From positions 1 to 64,000 of the forward strand of contig JADFOJ010000002.1 in the NCBI GenBank assembly GCA_022562915.1: a stretch of DNA of 64,000 bases, written 5' to 3'. The notes below the pieces were generated by a model that was given only the letters and a program-made list of their open reading frames with translations, was not told the origin of the DNA and searched no databases. Source of the stretch: Planctomycetota bacterium (GTDB lineage: Bacteria > Planctomycetota > Phycisphaerae > Phycisphaerales > SM1A02). Below, piece by piece: positions 2,602 to 22,720 of this stretch (its first letter is position 1; the number at the start of each line of letters is the position of its first letter). Made by a program: the position numbers and the translations under genes.

Positions 2602-3984
2602 GTGCCAAAGAAGAGCCAGATCGTCATCGTTGCCAACAGGCTGCCGTTCCACCGCGTCCGGCGCGGCGGTACGTCCGAGTGGGCGACGAGCCCCGGCGGA
2701 CTGGTGTCGGCCCTGACGCCGGTGCTCAAGAATCGGACCAGTTGCTGGATCGGCTGGGCAGGCGCCGCCGGGGCGGCCCCGGACCCCTTCGAGCACGAGG
2801 GCATTCACAACCACCCCGTGCGCCTGAGCCGGGACGAGTTGGAGACCTTCTACGAGGGATTCTGCAACCGGACGCTGTGGCCGCTGTACCACGATGCCGT
2901 GCGCACGCCGGAGTACCGGCGGCGGTGGTGGCGGCCGTACGTGGAGGTGAACCGCCGGTTCGCCGAGGCCGCAGCCGGCCAGGTCGCCCGTGGCGGGACG
3001 GTGTGGATCCACGACTACCACCTTCAGCTTGTCCCGGCCATCATTCGAGAGCTGCGCCCCGACGTCCGGGTCGGGTTCTTCCTGCACATCCCCTTTCCGC
3101 CGCAGGAACTCTTCTCGCAGCTCCCGTGGCGGCAGCCGATCCTGGCGGGCCTGCTCGGCGCGGACGTGGTGGGTTTCCAGACCAGGGGCGGCGCCCAGAA
3201 CTTCTCCAGGCTCTGCCGGCGGTACGCCGGGGCCGAGGGCACGCGCGACGAGCTGTCGTTCGACGGGCGAACGATCCACCCCGGCGCGTACCCGGTGTCC
3301 ATCGACGTGGACCGGTTCGAGGCGCTGGCCGCGTCCGAGGCGGTCCAGCGGCGCACCGCGGAGTTCCGCCAGCGCCTCGGCACCGACCGCAAGATCATCC
3401 TGGGCGTCGATCGCATGGACTACACCAAGGGAATCGACATCCGGCTGCACGCCTACCGCGGGCTGCTGCGATCCGAGCGGATCACACTCGATGAGTGCGT
3501 GTTCGTCCAGGTCGCGGTCCCCAGCCGCGAGCGGGTGGAGCAATACGGTGAGCTGCGATCGCACGTCGAGCGCCTCGTCGGCGAGATCAACGGGGAGTTC
3601 GGCGAGCTGGGTCGCACGCCCATCCACTACCTGCACCGCAGCCTGCCCGTCGAAGAGCTGGTGGCGCTGTACCTGGCGGCCGACGTCATGCTGGTCACGC
3701 CGCTTCGCGACGGGATGAACCTCGTGGCCAAGGAGTACGTCGCGGCCCGCACCGACAACACCGGCGTGCTCGTGCTCAGCGAGTTCACCGGCTCGGCGCA
3801 GGAGCTGCAGTCGGCGCTGCTGGTGAATCCACACGACATCGACGGGCTCGAAGCCGCGCTGTACACGGCGCTGCACATGCCGCCGCGCGAGCAGCAGGAT
3901 CGCATGAAGACGCTCCGCCGGGCGCTGCGTCGCAACGACGTCTTTCACTGGGCGAACCGGTTCCTGGACACGCTGGCGGCATGA
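2602..3984 (+). CDS. otsA: Trehalose-6-phosphate synthase (GT20)
   Basis: Makes trehalose-6-phosphate from UDP-glucose and glucose-6-phosphate in the cytosol. Hallmarks include VIVANRLPF at the start, GGLVSAL, WIHDYHLQLVP, FFLHIPFPP, GVDRMDYTKGID, and the nucleotide-sugar site LVTPLRDGMNLVAKEYVAA. I chose the GTG at 2602, which places VIVANRLPF at residue 8 as in the family and gives 460 residues. The ATG at 2482 would add 40 low-complexity residues. The stop overlaps the next start (ATGA at 3981-3984), so synthase and phosphatase are translationally coupled. Confidence 0.95.
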   Translation: MPKKSQIVIVANRLPFHRVRRGGTSEWATSPGGLVSALTPVLKNRTSCWIGWAGAAGAAPDPFEHEGIHNHPVRLSRDELETFYEGFCNRTLWPLYHDAVRTPEYRRRWWRPYVEVNRRFAEAAAGQVARGGTVWIHDYHLQLVPAIIRELRPDVRVGFFLHIPFPPQELFSQLPWRQPILAGLLGADVVGFQTRGGAQNFSRLCRRYAGAEGTRDELSFDGRTIHPGAYPVSIDVDRFEALAASEAVQRRTAEFRQRLGTDRKIILGVDRMDYTKGIDIRLHAYRGLLRSERITLDECVFVQVAVPSRERVEQYGELRSHVERLVGEINGEFGELGRTPIHYLHRSLPVEELVALYLAADVMLVTPLRDGMNLVAKEYVAARTDNTGVLVLSEFTGSAQELQSALLVNPHDIDGLEAALYTALHMPPREQQDRMKTLRRALRRNDVFHWANRFLDTLAA

Positions 3985-6509
3985 ACGACATCGACCGCCA
4001 TCTCCAGCGGATCGCCCGGGTGCCCGTGCTCCTGGTGGCGTCCGACTACGACGGCACGATCGCGCCCATCGTGGCGGACCCGGACCGGGCCCGGCCGCAG
4101 CGGGAGTCGATCGTGGCGCTGCGACGCCTCTCGGCGTTGCCGCAGACGCACGTGGCAGTCATCTCCGGGCGGGCGCTGGTGGACCTGGCCCGCCTCACCG
4201 GGCTGCCGGAGGACGTTCACCTGGTGGGCAGCCACGGCAGCGAGTTCGATCTCGACTTCGCCACGAACCTGCCGCCGGAAGCCGCCGCGCTGCGCGAGCG
4301 CATCGCGTCGGAGCTCACCGCCGTCGCCGCCGACGTGGACGGTCTGCTCATCGAGACCAAGCCGGCGAGCGTCGCGTTCCACTACCGCAACGCGGACCCG
4401 CTCAAGGCAGCCGACGCGCTCAAGGCCGTGCTCGACGGCCCGGCGTCCCTGGAGGGCGTGTTCACCAAGCACGGCAAGAAGGTTGTCGAGCTCGGCGTGG
4501 TCGCGACGAACAAGGGCCGCGCCCTGGAGACGATGCGTCACCGCTCCGGAGCCTCGGCGGTCATCTTCTTCGGCGACGACCGGACGGACGAAGACGCCTT
4601 CGCCACGCTGGCCGGCCCCGACATCGGGATCAAGGTCGGCGACGGCGACACGGCCGCGGCGCACCGCGTGGACGGCCCCGGCGACGTCGCGAAGATCCTG
4701 GCGAGGCTCTGTGAGCTGCGGACGCAATGGCTGGACGGCGCCCAGGCCGTCGGGATCGAGCAGCACTCGATGCTCTCCGATCAACGCACGGTCGCGCTGG
4801 TGACGCCCGGCGCCCGGGTCGTGTGGATGTGCGTGCCCAGGCTCGATTCGCCGGCGCTGTTCGCCGAACTGCTCGGCGGCCCGGCGGCCGGGCATTTCTC
4901 GATTCGTCCGGCGGACGGGAGTCCGCCGCGCGAGCAGTGCTACCGGGACGGCTCGCTCGTACTGGAGACGCGCTTCGACGGTTTTGCGGTCACGGATTTC
5001 CTGGACTGCTCGCTGGGGCGACCGCGACGTCGCGCGGGGCGGTGTGAACTCGTGCGTCTCGTCGATGGTCGCGGCCGGTTCATCGTCGAGTTCGCGCCGC
5101 GGCTGGACTTCGGACGCGTGCCGACGAGGCTCTCGCAGCGCGACGGCGGGCTCGAGATCCAGGGCACGCTCGACCCCATCGTGCTCCGCTCCCCCGGCGT
5201 CCAGTGGTCGATCCACGTCGAGGGCGATCACCACACCGCCCGGGCCGAGGTCGAACTCTCCGGCACGACGCAGGTGTTCGAGCTGCGTCACGGCACCGGA
5301 AGCCTGCGCGACCCCGGCACCCCGGCGGTCGACCGGTGCCGGTTGACCGAGCGTTTCTGGTCGTCGTGGGCGGCGGGGCTTCGCATCCCGGAGATCCAGG
5401 CCGACCTGGTGCGCACCAGCGCGCTCGTTCTGAAAGGTCTGTGCTACGGCCCCACCGGCGCGATCGCCGCCGCCGCGACCACGAGCCTGCCGGAGCACAT
5501 CGGCGGCGTGCGCAACTGGGACTACCGTTTCTGCTGGTTCCGCGACGGGGCCATGGCCGCGAGCGCGCTCGTCAAGCTCGGCTCGATCGCCGAGGCGATG
5601 CAGCACCTGGACTGGGTGCTGGGCGTGCTTGACAACTGCCCGTCGCCGCAGCGGCTGCAGCCGGTGTATACGGTGACGGGCGAACCGCTGGGCCCGGAGG
5701 CGGAGATCGGGGAGTTGTCGGGGTACCGCGGCAGCCGGCCGGTACGCGTCGGCAACATGGCGTCACGCCAGATCCAACTCGACGTCTTCGGTCCGATCGT
5801 CGAGCTGGTGGCGCTCCTGCTGGAACTCGATGCGCCGCTGTCCAGCCAGCACTGGCGGCTCGTGGAGGCGATGGTGTCGGCGGTCTCGCTGCGATGGAAC
5901 GAGCCCGATCACGGCATCTGGGAGATCCGCCGGTCGCCGCGACACCACGTGCACTCCAAGGTCATGTGCTGGTTGACCGTCGATCGCGCGATCACCGTGG
6001 CATGCCGGTTCCTCGACCAGGATCGCGACGACTGGAAGGCGTTGCGCGACCGCATCGGGGCCGATGTCATCGAGCACGGGTTTAAACCGGAACTCAACGC
6101 GTTCACCGCTGCATACGACGGCACCGACATCGACGCCGCGGCGTTGTACGTCGGGCTCAGCGGCCTGCTGGAGCCGGACGACCCGCGGTTTGCGGGCACG
6201 GTCGAGGCGGTCGAGCGGACGCTCAGGAGCGGGCCGACCGTGTACCGCTACCGCGCCGACGACGGTCTGCCGGGGTTCGAGGGCGGCTTTCACATCTGCG
6301 CGTCGTGGCTCGTCGACGCCTACGCGCTGCTGGGCCGCCACGAAGACGCCCGGCAGTTGTTCGAGCAGATCGCCGCCCTGGCGGGCCCGACCGGGATTCT
6401 CTCGGAGCAGTATGGTCCCAGAACGAAACGGGCGCTGGGCAACGTCCCCCAGGCGTACTCCCATATCGGGATCATCGAGAACGCGGTGCGCTTGGCCCGG
6501 ACGGGCTGA
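3981..6509 (+). CDS. Fusion of trehalose-6-phosphate phosphatase and GH15 glycosidase
   Basis: One 842-residue protein with two enzymes. Residues 1-245 are a HAD-type OtsB phosphatase: nucleophile motif DYDGT (22-26), SGR at 62-64, SHGSE at 84-88, and acidic motif GDDRTDED (198-205), which removes phosphate from trehalose-6-phosphate. From about 255 to the end is a GH15 glucoamylase/trehalase-type (alpha/alpha)6 enzyme with its beta-sandwich N-part, then RNWDYRFCWFRDG (511-523), a conserved GH15 block, and the C-terminal GILSEQY...GNVPQAYSH block. Family knowledge: GH15 members include glucoamylases and actinobacterial trehalases. So the protein could make and also split trehalose, or trim another glucan. 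Which substrate the GH15 half uses cannot be read from sequence. Confidence 0.92.
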   Translation: MNDIDRHLQRIARVPVLLVASDYDGTIAPIVADPDRARPQRESIVALRRLSALPQTHVAVISGRALVDLARLTGLPEDVHLVGSHGSEFDLDFATNLPPEAAALRERIASELTAVAADVDGLLIETKPASVAFHYRNADPLKAADALKAVLDGPASLEGVFTKHGKKVVELGVVATNKGRALETMRHRSGASAVIFFGDDRTDEDAFATLAGPDIGIKVGDGDTAAAHRVDGPGDVAKILARLCELRTQWLDGAQAVGIEQHSMLSDQRTVALVTPGARVVWMCVPRLDSPALFAELLGGPAAGHFSIRPADGSPPREQCYRDGSLVLETRFDGFAVTDFLDCSLGRPRRRAGRCELVRLVDGRGRFIVEFAPRLDFGRVPTRLSQRDGGLEIQGTLDPIVLRSPGVQWSIHVEGDHHTARAEVELSGTTQVFELRHGTGSLRDPGTPAVDRCRLTERFWSSWAAGLRIPEIQADLVRTSALVLKGLCYGPTGAIAAAATTSLPEHIGGVRNWDYRFCWFRDGAMAASALVKLGSIAEAMQHLDWVLGVLDNCPSPQRLQPVYTVTGEPLGPEAEIGELSGYRGSRPVRVGNMASRQIQLDVFGPIVELVALLLELDAPLSSQHWRLVEAMVSAVSLRWNEPDHGIWEIRRSPRHHVHSKVMCWLTVDRAITVACRFLDQDRDDWKALRDRIGADVIEHGFKPELNAFTAAYDGTDIDAAALYVGLSGLLEPDDPRFAGTVEAVERTLRSGPTVYRYRADDGLPGFEGGFHICASWLVDAYALLGRHEDARQLFEQIAALAGPTGILSEQYGPRTKRALGNVPQAYSHIGIIENAVRLARTG

Positions 6510-15470: not shown

Positions 15471-16217
15471 ATGACCGAGCCGTGGCACGAGAAGGATCAG
15501 ACCTGGGAGGCCCTGGCGCCGGTGCTGTTCACACGCCGCCGCTGGGAGCGGGCCGAGACCGAAGTCGGCCTGCTTGGCGCCCTGCTTGGGCTTACCGGCG
15601 ACGAGCAGATCCTGGACATGCCCTGCGGGACCGGCCGGCACTCGATCGAGCTTGCGCGGTGCGGGTACCGTGCGACCGGTGTCGATCGCACCGAGGCGTA
15701 CCTCGCCGAGGCACGGCGCCGCGCCGAGGCCGGCGGTGTCACCGTGGAGTGGGTCCGGGCGGACATGCGGTCGTTCTCGCGACCGCGGGCGTTCGACGTC
15801 GTGCTGAACCTGTACACCTCGTTCGGGTATTTCGAGGACACCGCGGACGACAAGCTGGCGGCGCGGGCGTTCTTCGATGCGTTGCGCCCCGGGGGCCGCC
15901 TGCTCATGGAGCTGTTCGGCCGGGAGAATCTCGCCGCCGGGTTTCAATCCCGCGCCTGGACCGAGCTTGACGACGGCCTGTTACTCCTGGAGGAGCGCGC
16001 CATCACAGACCACTGGCGCCGGGTGCACAACCGGTGGATTATGATCCAGGACACCCGCCGGCACGAAATCGAGTTCTCGCTGCGACTGTACTCCGCTGGC
16101 GAGTTGATTGACCTGCTGAGCGATGTCGGGTTCACCGACGTGACTGCCTTCGGCAACCTCGACGGCGACCCCTACGACGAGCACGCCCGGCGGCTCGTCA
16201 TCGTCGCGACGAAGTAA
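15471..16217 (+). CDS. Class I SAM-dependent methyltransferase
   Basis: A 248-residue methyltransferase of the Methyltransf_25 type. Motif I is ILDMPCGTGRHSIELA (about residues 44-59). The acidic ribose-binding position follows in GVDRTEAYLAEA, then VRADMRSF, FDVVLNLYTSFGYF and LRPGGRLLMELF. The C-terminal part (EFSLRLYSAGELIDLLSDVGFTDV) matches small-molecule methyltransferases. ATG at 15471 begins MTEPWHEKDQ; the upstream in-frame ATG at 15291 lies before the IS remnant and is rejected. Substrate unknown. It produces S-adenosylhomocysteine, the substrate of the ahcY product encoded 1.2 kb away, but the genes are convergent and not an operon. Confidence 0.88.
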   Translation: MTEPWHEKDQTWEALAPVLFTRRRWERAETEVGLLGALLGLTGDEQILDMPCGTGRHSIELARCGYRATGVDRTEAYLAEARRRAEAGGVTVEWVRADMRSFSRPRAFDVVLNLYTSFGYFEDTADDKLAARAFFDALRPGGRLLMELFGRENLAAGFQSRAWTELDDGLLLLEERAITDHWRRVHNRWIMIQDTRRHEIEFSLRLYSAGELIDLLSDVGFTDVTAFGNLDGDPYDEHARRLVIVATK

Positions 16218-16307
16218 TGCGCTTGTACCCGAACCCTGATCCACATGGAGGGTGAGTCGATCGGGTAGAGTTCCGTCTCTGTTTGGGTTCGCTCCGGAGC
16301 GCTCAAG

Positions 16308-17288
16308 CTATCTCGCCAAGGCGGTCTCGCGCGAGGCGAACCACATCTTGCACGACGGCGACCGCACGAACCTGGCGTACGCCGGTGCGTCGGCGATGCT
16401 GTCGAGGTTCCATTGGAAGTCGCGCTCCAGGACCGTGAGGCAGTGTGCCACCTCCGCGTAATCCCGCTGCGCCAGCGCCACGCGGAGGCGTACCAGGCGT
16501 GCTTCCTCGAGCATCGGTTCGCCGGAGATCGATCGCTCCGCGGTCTCTGCGGCGCGAACGAAGCTCCCTTGTTCGCAGAGGAAGTACGCCCTGAGCGTGT
16601 CGAGGTACGGGTCGTCGCCGACCGCCTCTTCGATGCGCGTGACGGCCTCTTCCGCGTCGGCCCAGTTCCGTGAACGCATCAACTGATCGAGTCCGGCCAG
16701 GTCGGCTGCCACCGTGCCGGTGCCCGGAGCCGCCGGCGGTGCGGGCCGGTCTGAGTCCATGTGTTCAAGGAGCAGGCGCCGGAGCGTCTGCGACATCATT
16801 TCGCCGCCGGTGAACACGTACAGGTCCACGATGGCGATGCGCCCGGTATCGTCCACGCCGAGCACGGCGTCGTGATAGTCCAGTCCGTCGTCACCGACGA
16901 TTCGATACAGGGCATGCGAACCGCCGCTGTCGTCGCGCACCCTCACCAGCTTGATGTGGCCATCTTCCCCGAGCCGGTGGAGGTATGCCGCCGACCACCG
17001 GGAACGCAGGGCACCGTCGGCGAACTCCCGCCGTTGCTCCGCCGACACGTCGAGCGCCTCGCAGACCAGGTCCATCATCGCGTCCGTGTCCAGTGCGTTG
17101 CTGATCGCACGGGAGTCCCGCTGGTTGACGGCGCGCTCGAAATGCTTGACGAACGCGAAGAGCCGGGCGCCGGCGAGCGACGGCGAGTCTTCCGGAGACG
17201 GCGTGAAGGCAGGCGGTCCCGAGGCGATCGACGGTACCGCGAGCACGGCGAAGAGGATCGGGGCGAGGCAACGCGCGGTCGGCGACAA
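16308..17288 (-). CDS. Exported TPR-like repeat protein, unknown function
   Basis: About 326 residues with an N-terminal signal (LSPTARCLAPILFAVLAVPSIASG). The first domain (residues 40-180) has an NTF2/SnoaL-like feel: AFVKHFERAVNQRDSRAISNALD, then DGLDYHDAVLGVDDTGRIAIVDLYVF. The C-terminal half has TPR-like helical pairs (LDQLMRSRNWADAEEAVTRI, LDTLRAYFLCEQGSFVRAAE, RVALAQRDYAEVAHCLTVLE). I place the start at TTG 17288, preceded by ACGGAG; the open frame extends to 17426 only through the palindrome at 17372-17418. No family name can be given. Confidence 0.75.
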   Translation of the reverse strand: MSPTARCLAPILFAVLAVPSIASGPPAFTPSPEDSPSLAGARLFAFVKHFERAVNQRDSRAISNALDTDAMMDLVCEALDVSAEQRREFADGALRSRWSAAYLHRLGEDGHIKLVRVRDDSGGSHALYRIVGDDGLDYHDAVLGVDDTGRIAIVDLYVFTGGEMMSQTLRRLLLEHMDSDRPAPPAAPGTGTVAADLAGLDQLMRSRNWADAEEAVTRIEEAVGDDPYLDTLRAYFLCEQGSFVRAAETAERSISGEPMLEEARLVRLRVALAQRDYAEVAHCLTVLERDFQWNLDSIADAPAYARFVRSPSCKMWFASRETALAR

Positions 17289-17371
17289 GAGGATGCTCCG
17301 TGGGGTTTGCGGGGCCCCCACGTGAGGATCGGCCGTACTCGGGTGTCGCTGAAGAGGCGCGAGAAAAAGGA

Positions 17372-17418
17372 GGGTGGCACGGTTGAACTCGCGAAGCGAG
17401 CTCAACCGTGCCACACCC
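17372..17418. repeat. GTGGCACGGTYGA palindrome family, copy 2 (short form)
   Basis: GGGTGGCACGGTTGA (17372-17386) pairs with the right arm ending CTCAACCGTGCCACACCC (17418; two extra bases). The loop carries ACTCGCGAAGCGAGCT, itself a hairpin. It lies 4 bases past the ahcY stop, so it could act as its terminator. Confidence 0.88.
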
Positions 17419-17422
17419 GCTC

Positions 17423-18943
17423 TCAATACCGGTAATACTCGGGCTTATACGGTCCCTCGACCGGAACGCCGATGTACTTCGCCTGCTCGGGCGAGAGTGT
17501 CGTGAGCCTTACGCCCAGCTTGTCGAGGTGCAGCCTCGCGACGTCCTCGTCGAGCTTCTTGGGCAGCGTGTACACCTCCAGCTCGTACTTGTCGGTGTGC
17601 GCGTGCAGCTCGATCTGGGCGAGGACCTGGTTCGTGAAGGAGTTGGACATCACGAAGCTGGGGTGACCGGTCGCGCAGCCGAGGTTCAGCAGGCGACCCT
17701 CGGCCAGCACGATGATGGAGTGCGCCTCGTGATCGGCCCCGCCGGGAAATATCCACTCGTCCACCTGGGGCTTGATGATGACTCGCTTGACGCCGGGCAC
17801 GGCGGCCAGGCCGGCCATGTCGATCTCGTTGTCGAAGTGACCGATGTTGCCGACGATCGCGTTGTGCTTCATCCGCTTCATGTGCTCGGCCGTGAGGATG
17901 TTGTAGTTGCCGGTGGCCGTCACGAAGATGTCCGCCGTCTCCAGCGCGTCTTCCAGCCGGACCACCTGGAAACCGTCCATGCACGCCTGCAAGGCGCAGA
18001 TCGGGTCGATCTCCGTGATGAGCACGCGCGCCTGTTGCCCGCGGAGCGACTGGGCGCAGCCCTTGCCGACGTCGCCGTAGCCGCAGACGACGGCGACCTT
18101 GCCGGAGATCATCACGTCCGTGGCACGCATGATGCCGTCGACGAGCGAGTGCCGGACGCCGTAGATGTTGTCGAACTTGCTCTTGGTGACCGAGTTGTTG
18201 ACGTTGATCGCCGGGAACAGCAACGTGCCGGCCTCCTGCATCTGGTACAGGCGGTTCGCGCCGGTGGTGGTTTCCTCGGTGACGCCCCTGATGCCGGTGG
18301 CGAGCCGGTCGAAGAAGCCCGCGTCGTGACTGCGAACGGCCCGGAGCACGTCAAGCACCACGCCGATCTCCTCGTTCTCGGCCCGCGCGGGATCGGGCGC
18401 GGTGCCCGCCCGCTCCAGTTCGGCGCCGTTGTGAACGAGCAGCGTCGCGTCGCCGCCGTCGTCGAGGATCAGGTTCGGGCCCTTGCCGCCCGGCCAGTTG
18501 AGCGCCTGGAACGTGCACCACCAGTACTCGGCGAGGGTCTCGCCCTTCCACGCATAGACCGGCGAGCCCTGCGGGTTGTCCGGGCTGCCCGTGGGGCCCA
18601 CGACGGCCGCGGCGGCGGCGTGGTCCTGGGTGGAAAAGATATTGCAACTGGCCCAGCGGACCTCCGCGCCCAGCTCGACCAGCGTCTCGATGAGGACCGC
18701 GGTCTGGATGGTCATGTGCAGGCTGCCGATGATCCGGGCGCCGTCCAGGGGCCTCTTGCCGGCGTGACGGGCTCTCAGGGCCATGAGGCCGGGCATCTCG
18801 TGTTCGGCGAGCTCGATCTCCTTGCGACCGAAGGCGACGGTCTCGGCGGACAGGTCGGCGACCTTGTACGGCAGGTCGCAGAACAACGGCAGCCCGGTGT
18901 CCAGGAAGTTGGTGGCTTGCGGCACGGCGGCGGTGCTCGTCAT
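17423..18943 (-). CDS. ahcY: Adenosylhomocysteinase (SAH hydrolase)
   Basis: Hydrolyses S-adenosylhomocysteine to adenosine and homocysteine in the methyl cycle, using tightly bound NAD. Hallmarks: [66 protein letters not shown] with the catalytic lysine region, the Rossmann motif [13 protein letters not shown], and the C-terminal KPEYYRY that closes over the partner NAD site. Its 506 residues fit the longer bacterial form. It is the last gene of a leftward cluster with an ArsR-methyltransferase regulator and has its own promoter and a candidate operator at 18970-19024. A repeat palindrome follows the stop. Confidence 0.97.
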
Positions 18944-18969
18944 CGGGAGATCTCCACGGGAATGCTTTT

Positions 18970-18985
18970 ATCCGTTCATCCGGAT
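18970..18985 (-). promoter_or_regulatory. Candidate operator of ahcY (ATCCGGATGAACGGAT)
   Basis: On the coding strand the 16-mer ATCCGGATGAACGGAT begins with the palindrome ATCCGGAT and contains CGGAT twice, spaced by GAA. It lies 10 bases downstream of the -10 box, where a bound repressor would block transcription. ArsR-family proteins bind imperfect palindromes at such sites (family knowledge), and the ArsR-methyltransferase gene lies two genes upstream. A 13-base part recurs before frdA. Confidence 0.5.
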
Positions 18986-18995
18986 TTAGTGATGA

Positions 18996-19024
18996 AGAAT
19001 ATGATACGCGCGTAACATCGTCAA
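18996..19024 (-). promoter_or_regulatory. Sigma-70-type promoter of ahcY
   Basis: On the minus strand, TTGACG (19024-19019) and TATTCT (19001-18996) are separated by exactly 17 bases. Both boxes lie in the gap between the SGNH hydrolase stop and the ahcY start, so ahcY can be transcribed separately from the upstream genes. Confidence 0.55.
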
Positions 19025-19053
19025 GCGCCGCCCCCTTGGATAGCTCTTGGCGC

Positions 19054-19836
19054 CTAAAAAAACCACAAGCCGGTGCCATCGGGCAGCCGGCTGCACGGCT
19101 GGGACCGGCCCATTCGCCGGCCCGCCAGCCACCATTTCTGTGGTGTCGCCGTCCGGAGCCGCAGCCATCGGACCGCCGAGGGGTCCGGCTTCCGCGGCGT
19201 AGCGCCGCCGGCGCCCCACGGGCCGATCGCCTGCTGCCACGCCCGGACCAGGAACCGCCGCCGCGGGTGGATCGGGTCCAGACCGTACCAGCGGCCGTCG
19301 GGCTCGACCAGCGTGACGCCATCTCGGCCGCCAAGCGGCTGCAGCCCTTCGTACAGCGCTCGCAAGCGGTCCATTGCCGTGGTCAGTGACATCCCGCGGC
19401 CCGGAAAGAACAGCGACCTCGCCAGGCCGAACCGCCAGGGCGTGAGCGTCTCGAGGCTCTCCATGGGCGGTAGCGTCACGACGATGCCGGCCCCGGTCTC
19501 GCGAAGCCGGTCCACGCACTCGGTGACCCAGCGCAGGATCGTCTCCACCGGCACGCCGTAGATGACGTCGTTGCCGATATCGGTGATGAGCGCGAATGTC
19601 GGGCCCGATCCCCCCGACCGCTGCCGAAGCGCCGCCCACAGTCCGCACTCGGCGATGCCCGGAAGACTTCGCCCCAGGAGAGTGCTGCGTTGGCCGTACG
19701 ACCGGCCGTGGCCCATGGCGATGAGGAACTCGCTTGGCGCCCCCACGAGCTCGGCGGCCATGCCCACGACGGTCGAGATGCCGCGGGTGAGGTTGCTCGC
19801 CCCCAGGAGAACGATGCGAGGCGTGGCGTCCTGCAC
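19054..19836 (-). CDS. SGNH/GDSL-like hydrolase domain protein
   Basis: A 260-residue cytosolic protein without signal peptide. Block I LLGASNLTRG holds the putative nucleophile serine (S14). ALITDIGNDVIYG supplies the block III asparagine, and LDPIHPRRRF gives the D-x-x-H dyad, so the SGNH esterase residues are in place. The last 50 residues are basic and proline/tryptophan rich. It starts 6 bases after the ArsR-methyltransferase stop, so the two are probably coupled. Substrate unknown. A link to SAH or methyl metabolism is only suggested by the operon. Confidence 0.75.
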   Translation of the reverse strand: MQDATPRIVLLGASNLTRGISTVVGMAAELVGAPSEFLIAMGHGRSYGQRSTLLGRSLPGIAECGLWAALRQRSGGSGPTFALITDIGNDVIYGVPVETILRWVTECVDRLRETGAGIVVTLPPMESLETLTPWRFGLARSLFFPGRGMSLTTAMDRLRALYEGLQPLGGRDGVTLVEPDGRWYGLDPIHPRRRFLVRAWQQAIGPWGAGGATPRKPDPSAVRWLRLRTATPQKWWLAGRRMGRSQPCSRLPDGTGLWFF

Positions 19837-19842
19837 GGCCGT

Positions 19843-20775
19843 TTACCGCCTCTTTGACATCGTCGCCACGAAAAGCCCCGGCCCCTTCGCCGACGTGTCC
19901 GCAGGCAGACGCCGGTAGCGCATGTCGAGAAGGCCGGAGTCTCCAGCCCACTGCCGGACCCGGGCCTCGTCGAATCCCAGGTGCTGGTGCCCCATCGTGT
20001 GCCGGTAGCTCTCGCGGTCGTGGGCCACCATGTCGACGATCAGCGCCCGGCCGCCGGGCTTCATGATGCGGGCGATTTCCGCCATGGCCGCTTCCGGTCG
20101 CGGCACGTAGACCATGACCAGCGACACGATGACCGCATCGACCGTCGCCTCCGCCAGCGACAGCGCGGTGAGATCGTCCTGGAGGTACTCGACGTTGTCG
20201 AACCCCTCCAACCGGTGGCGTGCCGCGGTGAGCATCTGGGGTTCTCGATCGACCGCGATGACCTTCCGGACGACGGCGGCGAGGCTCTCCGCTGTCACGC
20301 CCGTGCCGCAGCCCAGGTCCGCCACGACCCACTCCGGTTCGAGCAGACCGACCAGCGCCGCGGAAGTGAACCTCTCGCCGAACAGTTCACTGCGCAGGCG
20401 GTCCCACTCGCCGACGATGCGACCGAAGAACGTCCTGGAGTCGCCGCGGCGCTGAGCGAGAACCATGGCCAGCCTGTGGTCGTCCTCGGCGAGCGTCGGC
20501 CCGTTGTCGAGCTGCTTGTGCACGACGTTCCAGAGTGCCAGGGCGTTCGCGCCGAGCGCCGCATCGTCCATGCGGTAGAGGCTTGCCGGACCCTCGCTGC
20601 GCAGGGCGATCCAGTCGTTGTCGTGAAGGATCTTGAGGTGACGGCTGACCGTCGACTGCGGCAGTTGCAGGATCTTCGACAGCTCCCCGACACTGAGCTC
20701 CTCCCGCTCGATGAGCCGCAGCAGGCGCAGCCGTACCATGTCGCTGAGCGACGCCAGCGATCGCATCAGCTCCAT
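19843..20775 (-). CDS. ArsR-family regulator fused to a SAM methyltransferase domain
   Basis: A 310-residue two-domain protein. Residues 1-75 are an ArsR winged helix (SLSDMVRLRLLRLIEREELS, VGELSKILQLPQSTVSRHLKIL, then wing YRMDD). From about 110 a class I methyltransferase domain follows with VADLGCGTGVTAES (151-164), VIAVDREPQML, LQDDLTALSLAEATVDAVIVS and MKPGGRALIVDM. Known precedent: SahR-like regulators of SAM recycling belong to the ArsR family and sense S-adenosylhomocysteine, and some carry a methyltransferase-like domain as sensor. The operon with ahcY makes that role likely here. It could instead be an active methyltransferase. ATG at 20775 gives the canonical start. Confidence 0.87.
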   Translation of the reverse strand: MELMRSLASLSDMVRLRLLRLIEREELSVGELSKILQLPQSTVSRHLKILHDNDWIALRSEGPASLYRMDDAALGANALALWNVVHKQLDNGPTLAEDDHRLAMVLAQRRGDSRTFFGRIVGEWDRLRSELFGERFTSAALVGLLEPEWVVADLGCGTGVTAESLAAVVRKVIAVDREPQMLTAARHRLEGFDNVEYLQDDLTALSLAEATVDAVIVSLVMVYVPRPEAAMAEIARIMKPGGRALIVDMVAHDRESYRHTMGHQHLGFDEARVRQWAGDSGLLDMRYRRLPADTSAKGPGLFVATMSKRR

Positions 20776-20800
20776 TGGCGTCTCCAGCGGGGGTGTTCGT

Positions 20801-21457
20801 TCATCGACCGGGAGGAAGTCCGAGCGTCGGGCCGGGCACCTCGCCGAGCTCGCGCAGTTGCCTGTCGACGCGCGGATCTTCGGGATCGATCGTGTACGCC
20901 TGGCGCAGCCGGCGCAGCGCCGCGTCGAGGTCGCCGATCTGCTGGGAGAACAGCGCCGTCTGGACGTACGGCTCGACCGTCCTGCCCGCATCGATTTCGA
21001 TGGCGGTCTCGAAACCCGTCAGGGCCGTATCCGCGTCGCCGAGTTCGGCCGCGTACCGGCCGAGTCGCATCCACGCATGGACGGTCTGCTGGGTCCGGGT
21101 CCGTTGGGTGAGCAACTCGAACAGCGCCGTCTCGTCGGGCTGCCGGAACATCGCCTCGGCCAGCGCGTCCACGACGTCCGTGTTCTCGGGGCGGTTGGCG
21201 TAGGCGATCTCCAGGGCCGTGCGGGCACGGTCGGCGTGGCCCAGCTCCATCTCGCACAGGCCGAGCCGGTACTGCGCCTGCCAGTCACCGGGGACGCGAT
21301 CGACGATCTCGGCGTACTCGGCGGCCGCTGACGGATACTGCTGGTGGTCGAACTTGAAGTCCGCCGTGACGCGGACCGACTCGATGGGCCGTGCCCCGCA
21401 GCCGACCTGGACAAGGGCAACGGCAAGGACTGGCAACAACGCCGCTGGTCGTGACAT
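20801..21457 (-). CDS. TPR lipoprotein
   Basis: A 218-residue exported lipoprotein: MSRPAALLPVLAVALVQVGCG ends in a lipobox (VGCG). Tandem tetratricopeptide repeats follow: DHQQYPSAAAEYAEIVDRVP, QAQYRLGLCEMELGHADRAR, TVHAWMRLGRYAAELGDADT and YVQTALFSQQIGDLDAALRR. These repeats usually make protein-protein scaffolds (family knowledge). The frame extends to 21862, but the hydrophobic signal fixes the start at 21457. The gene ends 25 bases before the ArsR-methyltransferase start and probably heads that operon. No enzymatic motif is visible. Confidence 0.82.
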   Translation of the reverse strand: MSRPAALLPVLAVALVQVGCGARPIESVRVTADFKFDHQQYPSAAAEYAEIVDRVPGDWQAQYRLGLCEMELGHADRARTALEIAYANRPENTDVVDALAEAMFRQPDETALFELLTQRTRTQQTVHAWMRLGRYAAELGDADTALTGFETAIEIDAGRTVEPYVQTALFSQQIGDLDAALRRLRQAYTIDPEDPRVDRQLRELGEVPGPTLGLPPGR

Positions 21458-21553
21458 GTCATGCACTCCATTGCGTGACCGGGAATCCTCTGAGACGCGC
21501 ATCATACCGGCTCGCCCCGGTTCACGGCGGGAACCCCCTACGATCCCGATGAG

Positions 21554-21982
21554 ATGCCCGCGAGCGACACGCCTGACCGGCCGACCGTCCTGCTCCGGCA
21601 CGAGCTCCCCGACGGAACCAGCCACGTGGATTGGATGATCGCCCCCGACGACATGGACGGTCGTGAACTGCTCGTGACGTTCCGGGTCGCCGGCCGGATC
21701 GATGAATTGACCGCGGGCGAGCGGCTCGCCGCCCGGCGGATCGGCGATCACCGGCGGGCGTACCTGACCTTCGAGGGACCGGTTTCCGGCGGCCGCGGCA
21801 CGGTCACGCGGCTGGCCGGCGGCGTGGTCGTCTCCTGGCAGCGGCTCCCGGACCGCTGGCACATGGAGATCGACTGGTTCGCTCCGGACGGCGGCCTTCG
21901 CCGGCAGGCGCTTGATGTCTCCCGGCAGCGGCCGGGCGACTCCTGGGTGATCCGGGTGGTTGACTCGCAGCCGGCCGTATAG
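21554..21982 (+). CDS. Stand-alone LigD 3'-phosphoesterase-like protein
   Basis: A 142-residue protein. The N-terminal LLRHELPDGTSHVDWMI carries H16, H24 and D26 in the H-x7-H-x-D spacing seen in the phosphoesterase domain of bacterial LigD. The block AYLTFEGPVSGGRGTVTRLAGG matches what I know from short planctomycete LigD_N-type proteins. In LigD this domain trims 3' ribonucleotides and 3' phosphates at breaks. Here no ligase, polymerase or Ku gene lies nearby, so a repair role is inference. It diverges from the TPR lipoprotein and lies 29 bases before the next gene. Confidence 0.6.
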   Translation: MPASDTPDRPTVLLRHELPDGTSHVDWMIAPDDMDGRELLVTFRVAGRIDELTAGERLAARRIGDHRRAYLTFEGPVSGGRGTVTRLAGGVVVSWQRLPDRWHMEIDWFAPDGGLRRQALDVSRQRPGDSWVIRVVDSQPAV

Positions 21983-22011
21983 GCTCTAGAGACGAACAAA
22001 GGGGACTCTTC

Positions 22012-22422
22012 ATGCAGACCGATCCGAGTCAATCGGAGGGCGGCGCCGGATCCGGGATCCAGCACAGCAAGCCCGGGATCCGTCCGTCCGCGGCCGCGGC
22101 CGACGCCGACGACACGGCGCCCCTGCCGGTGGCCGAGGGCGTCGGACCCTCCACCGGCGCCAAGCGGATCAGCGCCTTCGGCAAGCCGCAGCGCCACGAG
22201 GATCACTGGAATCGCTCGCCCAACACGACGGGCATCGGCGCGATCCACGTCAAGACCTTCCACGCCAAGCTCACCGGCGACGCGCTGGAGTACATGGACC
22301 AGTGCATCAACGAGTGGCTCGATGCGCACCCCCAGTACGAGGTGAAGTTCGTCAGCTCCACCGTCGGGACCCTCACCGGCAAGATCAAGGAGCCGAACAT
22401 CATCTGCCAGGTCTGGGTCTGA
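22012..22422 (+). CDS. Conserved-looking small protein, unknown function
   Basis: A 136-residue protein with two parts. Residues 1-75 are low complexity and probably disordered (serine, alanine, acidic; ADADDTAPLPVAEGVG). Residues 76-136 look like a compact alpha/beta domain: IHVKTFHAKLTGDALEYMDQ, CINEWLDAHPQYEVKFVSST, VGTLTGKIKEPNIICQVWV. The pattern of strand, long helix and two strands is regular, but I do not recognise the family. GGGGAC lies 7 bases before the ATG. It is 25 bases upstream of the ferredoxin gene and likely cotranscribed with it. Confidence 0.7.
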   Translation: MQTDPSQSEGGAGSGIQHSKPGIRPSAAAADADDTAPLPVAEGVGPSTGAKRISAFGKPQRHEDHWNRSPNTTGIGAIHVKTFHAKLTGDALEYMDQCINEWLDAHPQYEVKFVSSTVGTLTGKIKEPNIICQVWV

Positions 22423-22447
22423 GAGAAAGAGCCGTTCGTCACTGCGC

Positions 22448-22720
22448 ATGAACCAGGACGACCTAGTGTGTCTCTGCCACCGCGTGAGCTTGCGCAAGCT
22501 TGTCAACTACATGAATCGCGAGCGGCCTTCCGTGCCCTCGCAGCTCAGTGAGTGTCTCGGTGCGGGAACCGGCTGCCAGTGGTGCGTGCCGTTCCTGAAG
22601 AAGATCCACACGCAGTGGGGCCGTGGCGAGGAGCCGCACCTGTCCGTCTCGCCGGAGAGCTACGCTGCGCGGCGGGCGAAATACCAACAGGCGCGTGAGG
22701 GTGGTTCGGCCGCTCCGTAG
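22448..22720 (+). CDS. BFD-like [2Fe-2S] protein
   Basis: A 90-residue protein with a bacterioferritin-associated-ferredoxin-like fold. Cluster cysteines are C8 and C10 (DLVCLCHRVS) and C43 and C46 (GTGCQWCVPF), the C-x-C...C-x2-C spacing of the BFD domain. The C-terminal 30 residues (SPESYAARRAKYQQAREGG) are an extra charged helix. BFD proteins pass electrons to bacterioferritin to release iron, and the same fold occurs in nitrite reductases. No ferritin gene is present here, so the partner is unknown. A repeat palindrome follows. Confidence 0.85.
   Translation: MNQDDLVCLCHRVSLRKLVNYMNRERPSVPSQLSECLGAGTGCQWCVPFLKKIHTQWGRGEEPHLSVSPESYAARRAKYQQAREGGSAAP

Follow-up and report, generated by a model that had tools for sequence, protein, structure and literature searches.

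A probable SahR-type, SAH-responsive repressor at ahcY and metE in a planctomycete of the Phycisphaerales

Nearly all methyltransferases are inhibited by their product S-adenosylhomocysteine (SAH). SahR, an ArsR-family repressor that responds to SAH, is known from Desulfovibrio alaskensis, from rhizobia and from Pseudomonas (PA0547), and Novichkov, in 2014, reportedly described a methyltransferase-like sensor domain for SahR itself. The SAH riboswitch, found in the ahcY and metF leaders of beta- and gammaproteobacteria, does the same job, turning ahcY on when SAH rises, but does so through an RNA mechanism. The SahR repressor of D. alaskensis is freed by SAH and the SAM cycle is turned on (cited in PMC4239095 and PMC8877191); the published sahR gene of E. 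aridi is 1023 bp long (PMC8877191). SamR of the Xanthomonadales is a distant homologue of SahR, with a 24-bp palindrome containing ATC-10-GAT; it controls metK and methionine synthase genes, and SAM has been suggested as its ligand (PMC4239095). McbR of Corynebacterium is also a protein repressor reported to be SAH-responsive, but it is TetR-type and so belongs to an unrelated family (PMC4239095), and its regulon is wider, taking in methionine and cysteine. Within the open-licence literature searched, there is no relevant report of SahR in Planctomycetes and no description of SAH sensing in most non-proteobacterial phyla.

The window considered here is a stretch of 64,000 nucleotides of DNA from contig C91 of a 3.59-Mb draft assembly in 153 contigs, a MAG that is 93% complete. 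With a probability of about 0.88, the regulator encoded in the window (Table 1) is a SahR-type repressor of ahcY and metE that acts via a 24-bp operator and is released by SAH. The support that is seen consists of the architecture of the protein, the covariation of its recognition helix with the operator, the position of the operator overlapping or abutting the promoter, and three class-wide patterns, namely the linkage of the genes, the operator at SAM-cycle genes and the co-occurrence of regulator and operator. The SahR-type circuit of regulator and ahcY that had been proposed in an earlier note on this DNA is supported. In such a circuit, a dimer of the regulator would bind the palindrome at the start of the ahcY (and metE) promoter, excluding RNA polymerase. 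As SAH accumulated, it would bind to the methyltransferase-like domain and the regulator would leave the DNA; the resulting derepression would allow expression both of ahcY, for the removal of SAH, and of the methionine synthase gene, for the reloading of the methyl group. We infer that the regulator binds as a dimer, that it represses and does not activate, and that its ligand is SAH and not SAM or the ratio of the two; the last two points are drawn from the family and the promoter geometry.

Table 1. Features of the ahcY locus, with positions in the window
Feature	Position	Strand	Remark
TPR lipoprotein-like gene	20801-21457	-	25 bp upstream of regulator
Regulator, 310 aa	19843-20775	-	ArsR-HTH + Methyltransf_11
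260-aa ORF between regulator and ahcY	19054-19836	-	without Pfam/NCBIfam match
ahcY promoter, TTGACG-17-TATTCT	18996-19024	-	geometry matches relatives
24-bp putative operator, ATCACTAAATCCGGATGAACGGAT, imperfect palindrome	18970-18993	-	rank 1 in window by matrix
ahcY, S-adenosylhomocysteine hydrolase, 506 aa, putative regulated gene	17423-18943	-	PF05221 E 3.8e-139; TIGR00936 above cut-off
Terminator-like hairpin + T tail, 3' of ahcY	17374-17414	-	19 pairs

The gene order that the earlier note had read on the minus strand (TPR lipoprotein, ArsR-methyltransferase protein, an ORF and then ahcY) agrees with both the coordinates and the domain matches. Its label of SGNH hydrolase for the intervening ORF finds no backing in Pfam (E up to 1) or NCBIfam; no relative of this ORF is encoded in the regulator neighbourhoods of 40 relatives, and the ORF is particular to the host genome and lies outside the conserved unit. 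The TPR lipoprotein-like gene, unlinked in function, is a frequent neighbour in relatives.

The promoter that had been proposed for ahcY is the sole promoter-like match on either strand of positions 17000-22000, a region for which shuffled sequences give an average of 0.4. The 16-mer dyad described with it, ATCCGGATGAACGGAT, is present exactly, at 18970-18985 on the minus strand, but it is too short, being the right-hand 16 bp of a 24-bp palindrome. This putative operator has the form ATC-N5-ATCCGGAT-N5-GAT, with nAACGGAT as its right arm. When scored with a matrix of 32 sites, all taken from other families (leave-family-out), the ahcY site in the window reaches 35.4 bits and ranks first, while the next unrelated place reaches 9.1; the site is beyond chance. 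Lying 2 bp beyond the -10 box, the operator covers the expected +1 of ahcY. In relatives, the operator mostly abuts or overlaps the -10 box, and its left arm often doubles as the -10 hexamer (TATCAT, TACACT), with TTGACA at 16-17 bp. As judged from the sequences, this arrangement of operator and promoter would suit a repressor.

In an unbiased search, exact ATCCGGATNAACGGAT turns up 33 times across 29 order genomes, at 32 distinct sites, against zero for the reversed control; 30 of the 32 sites lie directly before regulator-ahcY, ahcY alone, metH, metK or metE. The earlier note had staked its proposal in advance on the motif recurring before other methyl-cycle genes, and it does recur: before metE in the host genome, and before metH, metK and metF in relatives. 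A site is found at the start of metH in all 20 genomes read (17-36 bits), at metK in 8 of 28 relatives (above 24 bits) and at metF in 2 of 29; in two genomes, metF follows regulator-ahcY in the gene run. In the host genome, metE has the operator, the exact 16-mer lying 43 bp upstream of the start of the gene, and a matrix scan of metK and metF finds no operator at either. MetH (PF02965), which is present in 28 of the 29 order genomes, was not found in the host genome, an absence that is not certain because the MAG is 93% complete, and a full-length MetE occurs in none of the 29 but the host genome. Of the SahR core regulon (ahcY, metH/metE, metF and metK), ahcY and metE have the operator in the host genome, and metH, metK and metF have it in relatives; metE as the target where metH is not found is a feature of the present regulator, unlike SahR.

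The same regulator and operator could serve a circuit that senses SAM, or the SAM/SAH ratio, and in which SAM is a co-repressor of methionine and SAM synthesis genes. The operator is equal in length, at 24 bp, to that of SamR (PMC4239095), about one relative in three has metK among the targets, and the binding motif in the protein is common to SAM and SAH. However, the most constant partner of the regulator is ahcY, whereas SamR regulons hold metK and no other SAM-cycle genes (PMC4239095); in a comparison made by description, those regulons are without ahcY and include metB, metX and hom, and targets of the metX/metB type are not found among the 32 exact sites. SAM as the ligand is considered unlikely, and release by SAH is preferred.

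The candidate SAH-released repressor consists of an N-terminal ArsR winged helix (PF01022, E 4e-12), whose recognition helix is PQSTVSRHLK, and a C-terminal class I methyltransferase fold (PF08241, Methyltransf_11, E 3e-22), both domain matches being above cut-off. The SAM/SAH motif DLGCGTG is intact, and its residues D153, G155 and G157 are invariant among the 22 sequences aligned. The AlphaFold model of the two-domain protein is confident (pLDDT 90.9), and the folds nearest to it are those of true methyltransferases. The top Foldseek match is Rv2258c-SAH, with a poor full-length alignment (TM 0.47); a full-length ArsR-methyltransferase fusion was not found in the PDB, in which ArsR and methyltransferase relatives match separately.

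The fused methyltransferase domain had been put forward as the sensor in the earlier note. The fusion is indeed present, but it is no departure from SahR, as the rhizobial counterpart of sahR is also fused. This Sinorhizobium ArsR-methyltransferase gene, through which SahR homology was judged as a stand-in for Desulfovibrio SahR, adjoins metF, has the 1023-bp length of E. aridi sahR, and encodes a protein 31.6% identical to the regulator (E 2e-16). The alphaproteobacterial homologues are ArsR-methyltransferase fusions with 29-36% identity to the regulator; when those of Leptospira are included, the range is about 27-36%. The regulator is of a kind already known, because SahR itself has the ArsR-methyltransferase architecture. 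The likeness extends from the ArsR winged helix with its methyltransferase-like domain, as seen in the homologues of Sinorhizobium, Rhizobium, Methylobacterium and Leptospira, to the palindromic operator, to ahcY, metH, metK and metF as targets (joined in most of the class by the regulator gene) and to the adjoining ahcY or metF. It could be argued that the regulator is instead an active methyltransferase, for example one with a small molecule or a protein as its substrate, in which the DNA-binding domain is accessory and control of ahcY is secondary. Such an enzyme would agree with the wholly conserved SAM motif and with the true methyltransferases among the nearest folds, but a conserved substrate gene was not seen near the regulator, and the link to a SAM-cycle operator is constant across phyla. 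This possibility is judged to be quite improbable.

The regulator has its closest named relatives in MAGs of uncultured Planctomycetota, Phycisphaerales and Phycisphaeraceae, which points to an uncultured, Phycisphaerales-like planctomycete as the most likely host. In a tree built by a quick method, with SH-aLRT as its only support, the window protein lies in a starred clade of 26 rows that contains Planctomycetota, Acidobacteria, Gemmatimonadetes and Myxococcales, and the alphaproteobacterial homologues form a separate starred clade. Because the regulator falls outside the latter, it is placed in a SahR-like sister clade and not with proteobacterial SahR.

Of 150 class genomes, 74 have the regulator gene, in single copy, and in 32 of the 40 neighbourhoods read it is followed by ahcY on the same strand within about 1.1 kb. 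The operator stands before the regulator in regulator-ahcY operons, or before ahcY where the two genes are separate, and it retains at least 12 of 14 fixed positions in 33 of the 40 loci and at least 11 in 37. The sequence ATCCGGATNNACGGAT is present in 48 of the 74 class genomes with the regulator versus 6 of the 76 without it (Fisher p = 8e-14 over the 150 genomes, a value that is only a guide because related genomes are not independent). The same pair of regulator and ahcY, together with the site, is seen in MAGs named Acidobacteria, Gemmatimonadetes, Myxococcales and Kiritimatiellae. Autoregulation, a core feature of SahR, is shared by most of the class, in that most other loci have an operator before the regulator gene, but it is not shared by the host's family: neither the host genome nor four further members of its family have an operator before the regulator gene, and so this feature is absent from the host genome. 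From the sequences, autoregulation appears to have been lost in the family, with the site kept at ahcY.

The recognition helix varies together with the type of operator. PQSTVSRHLK pairs with a CCGG-core operator in Planctomycetota, Acidobacteria, Gemmatimonadetes, Myxococcales and Kiritimatiellae. (It should be noted that the set of named relatives was picked partly by a peptide pattern containing PQST, and that its sampling is biased toward this helix because one search pattern favoured PQST.) QSRVSNHLK pairs with an AT-core 24-mer; QPRISRHLK pairs with ACATAAAGATATCTTTATGT in alphaproteobacteria (rhizobia, Methylobacterium); and in Leptospira the helix is GQSRVSRHLK and the operator is a perfect 24-bp palindrome, GGATATCAAGATATCTTGATATCC. 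The regulator differs from SahR in its operator, which is 24 bp with a ATCCGGAT / CCGG core rather than the proteobacterial 20-bp ACATAAAGATATCTTTATGT type, and in its recognition helix, PQSTVSRHLK, in contrast to the QPRISRHLK of alphaproteobacterial SahR. In Leptospira interrogans (replicon L311, 6950-9245), the genes for an ArsR-methyltransferase, ahcY and metH form one run behind GGATATCAAGATATCTTGATATCC, and from its sequence the fusion protein is likely to be the spirochaete version of the regulator.

If some different DNA-binding protein were the reader of the operator, the ArsR-methyltransferase would be merely a linked neighbour, and the partial uncoupling of regulator and ahcY in the host's family, in which the site stays at ahcY, could be understood in this way. 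Such a reader is very hard to credit, given that the operator tracks the regulator across the 150 genomes, that it precedes the regulator in the regulator-ahcY operons, and that the recognition helix covaries with the type of operator across phyla. The dyad could instead act once transcription has begun, as a hairpin or riboswitch in the RNA leader of ahcY, given that ATCCG-N6-CGGAT is able to pair and that the predicted start lies upstream of part of the site. This reading can be set aside: Rfam gives no match (E up to 1, positions 16000-22500), the orientation of the site flips relative to the metE and metH targets, and in many relatives the left arm of the dyad reaches into the -10 box, so that the dyad would not be wholly transcribed.

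For the SahR-type repressor, the lineage, the operator code and the metE rewiring appear to be new within the open-licence literature searched. The odds are about even that control of the methyl cycle by SahR-type regulators is an ancient system of several phyla (Planctomycetota, Acidobacteriota, Gemmatimonadota, Myxococcota, Kiritimatiellota, Spirochaetota and Pseudomonadota), with at least three operator codes that can be predicted from the recognition helix and with an operator that moves with the job of remethylation (metE replacing metH); this control may also extend to a DNA-methylase gene of a prophage and to a gene with a cobalamin riboswitch. The helix-to-operator code is testable, and a simple operator pattern predicts a SAM-cycle regulon in several largely uncultured phyla. 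For annotation, proteins labelled 'metalloregulator ArsR/methyltransferase' that are encoded beside ahcY are probably SAH sensors, not metal sensors.

The remaining two of the 32 exact sites lie at the prophage ParB_N/DNA-methylase gene and at the cobalamin riboswitch with a PEP-CTERM-type gene. In the first case (L189 1501-1524 / L304 8203-9612, G066:C1), an operator of 29.8 bits precedes a gene for a ParB_N/N6_N4 DNA methylase, in surroundings that resemble a prophage and include a terminase-like gene; this is a single case and may be due to chance. In the second (L303 2956-2979, G131:C16), an operator of 33.5 bits lies 35 bp before the cobalamin riboswitch (3014-3259), upstream of the PEP-CTERM-type ORF, and double control of this ORF by SAH and B12 is possible from the sequence. 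Phages were also considered as users of the operator and rejected: 16 viral contigs match a 17-base pattern, half of them intra-coding or redundant, and the genes concerned show no convincing recurrent type.

Elsewhere in the host genome, sequences close to the 16-mer were likewise rejected as operators. The one at C127:6893 lies within ribosomal-protein genes and is attributed to chance, and those on C44 and C106 adjoin parS-like sites, away from methyl-cycle genes. On these two contigs (L006, about 6008-6057, on C44; L007, about 5838-5886, on C106), the parS-like sequence TGTTTCACGTGAAACA, of which there are 8 in the host genome, stands next to an operator-like palindrome of 24 bp, ATCCGTTCATCCGGCTGAACGGAT. 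A palindrome-like TTACGCGCGTATC / GWTACGCGCGTATC element is located at 19003-19015 (minus strand), within the ahcY promoter spacer, 9 bp ahead of the operator, and the same element is present in the metE promoter at an identical distance to the operator. It is seen in 0 of 20 relatives and at five places in the host genome, one of them beside a parS-like site.
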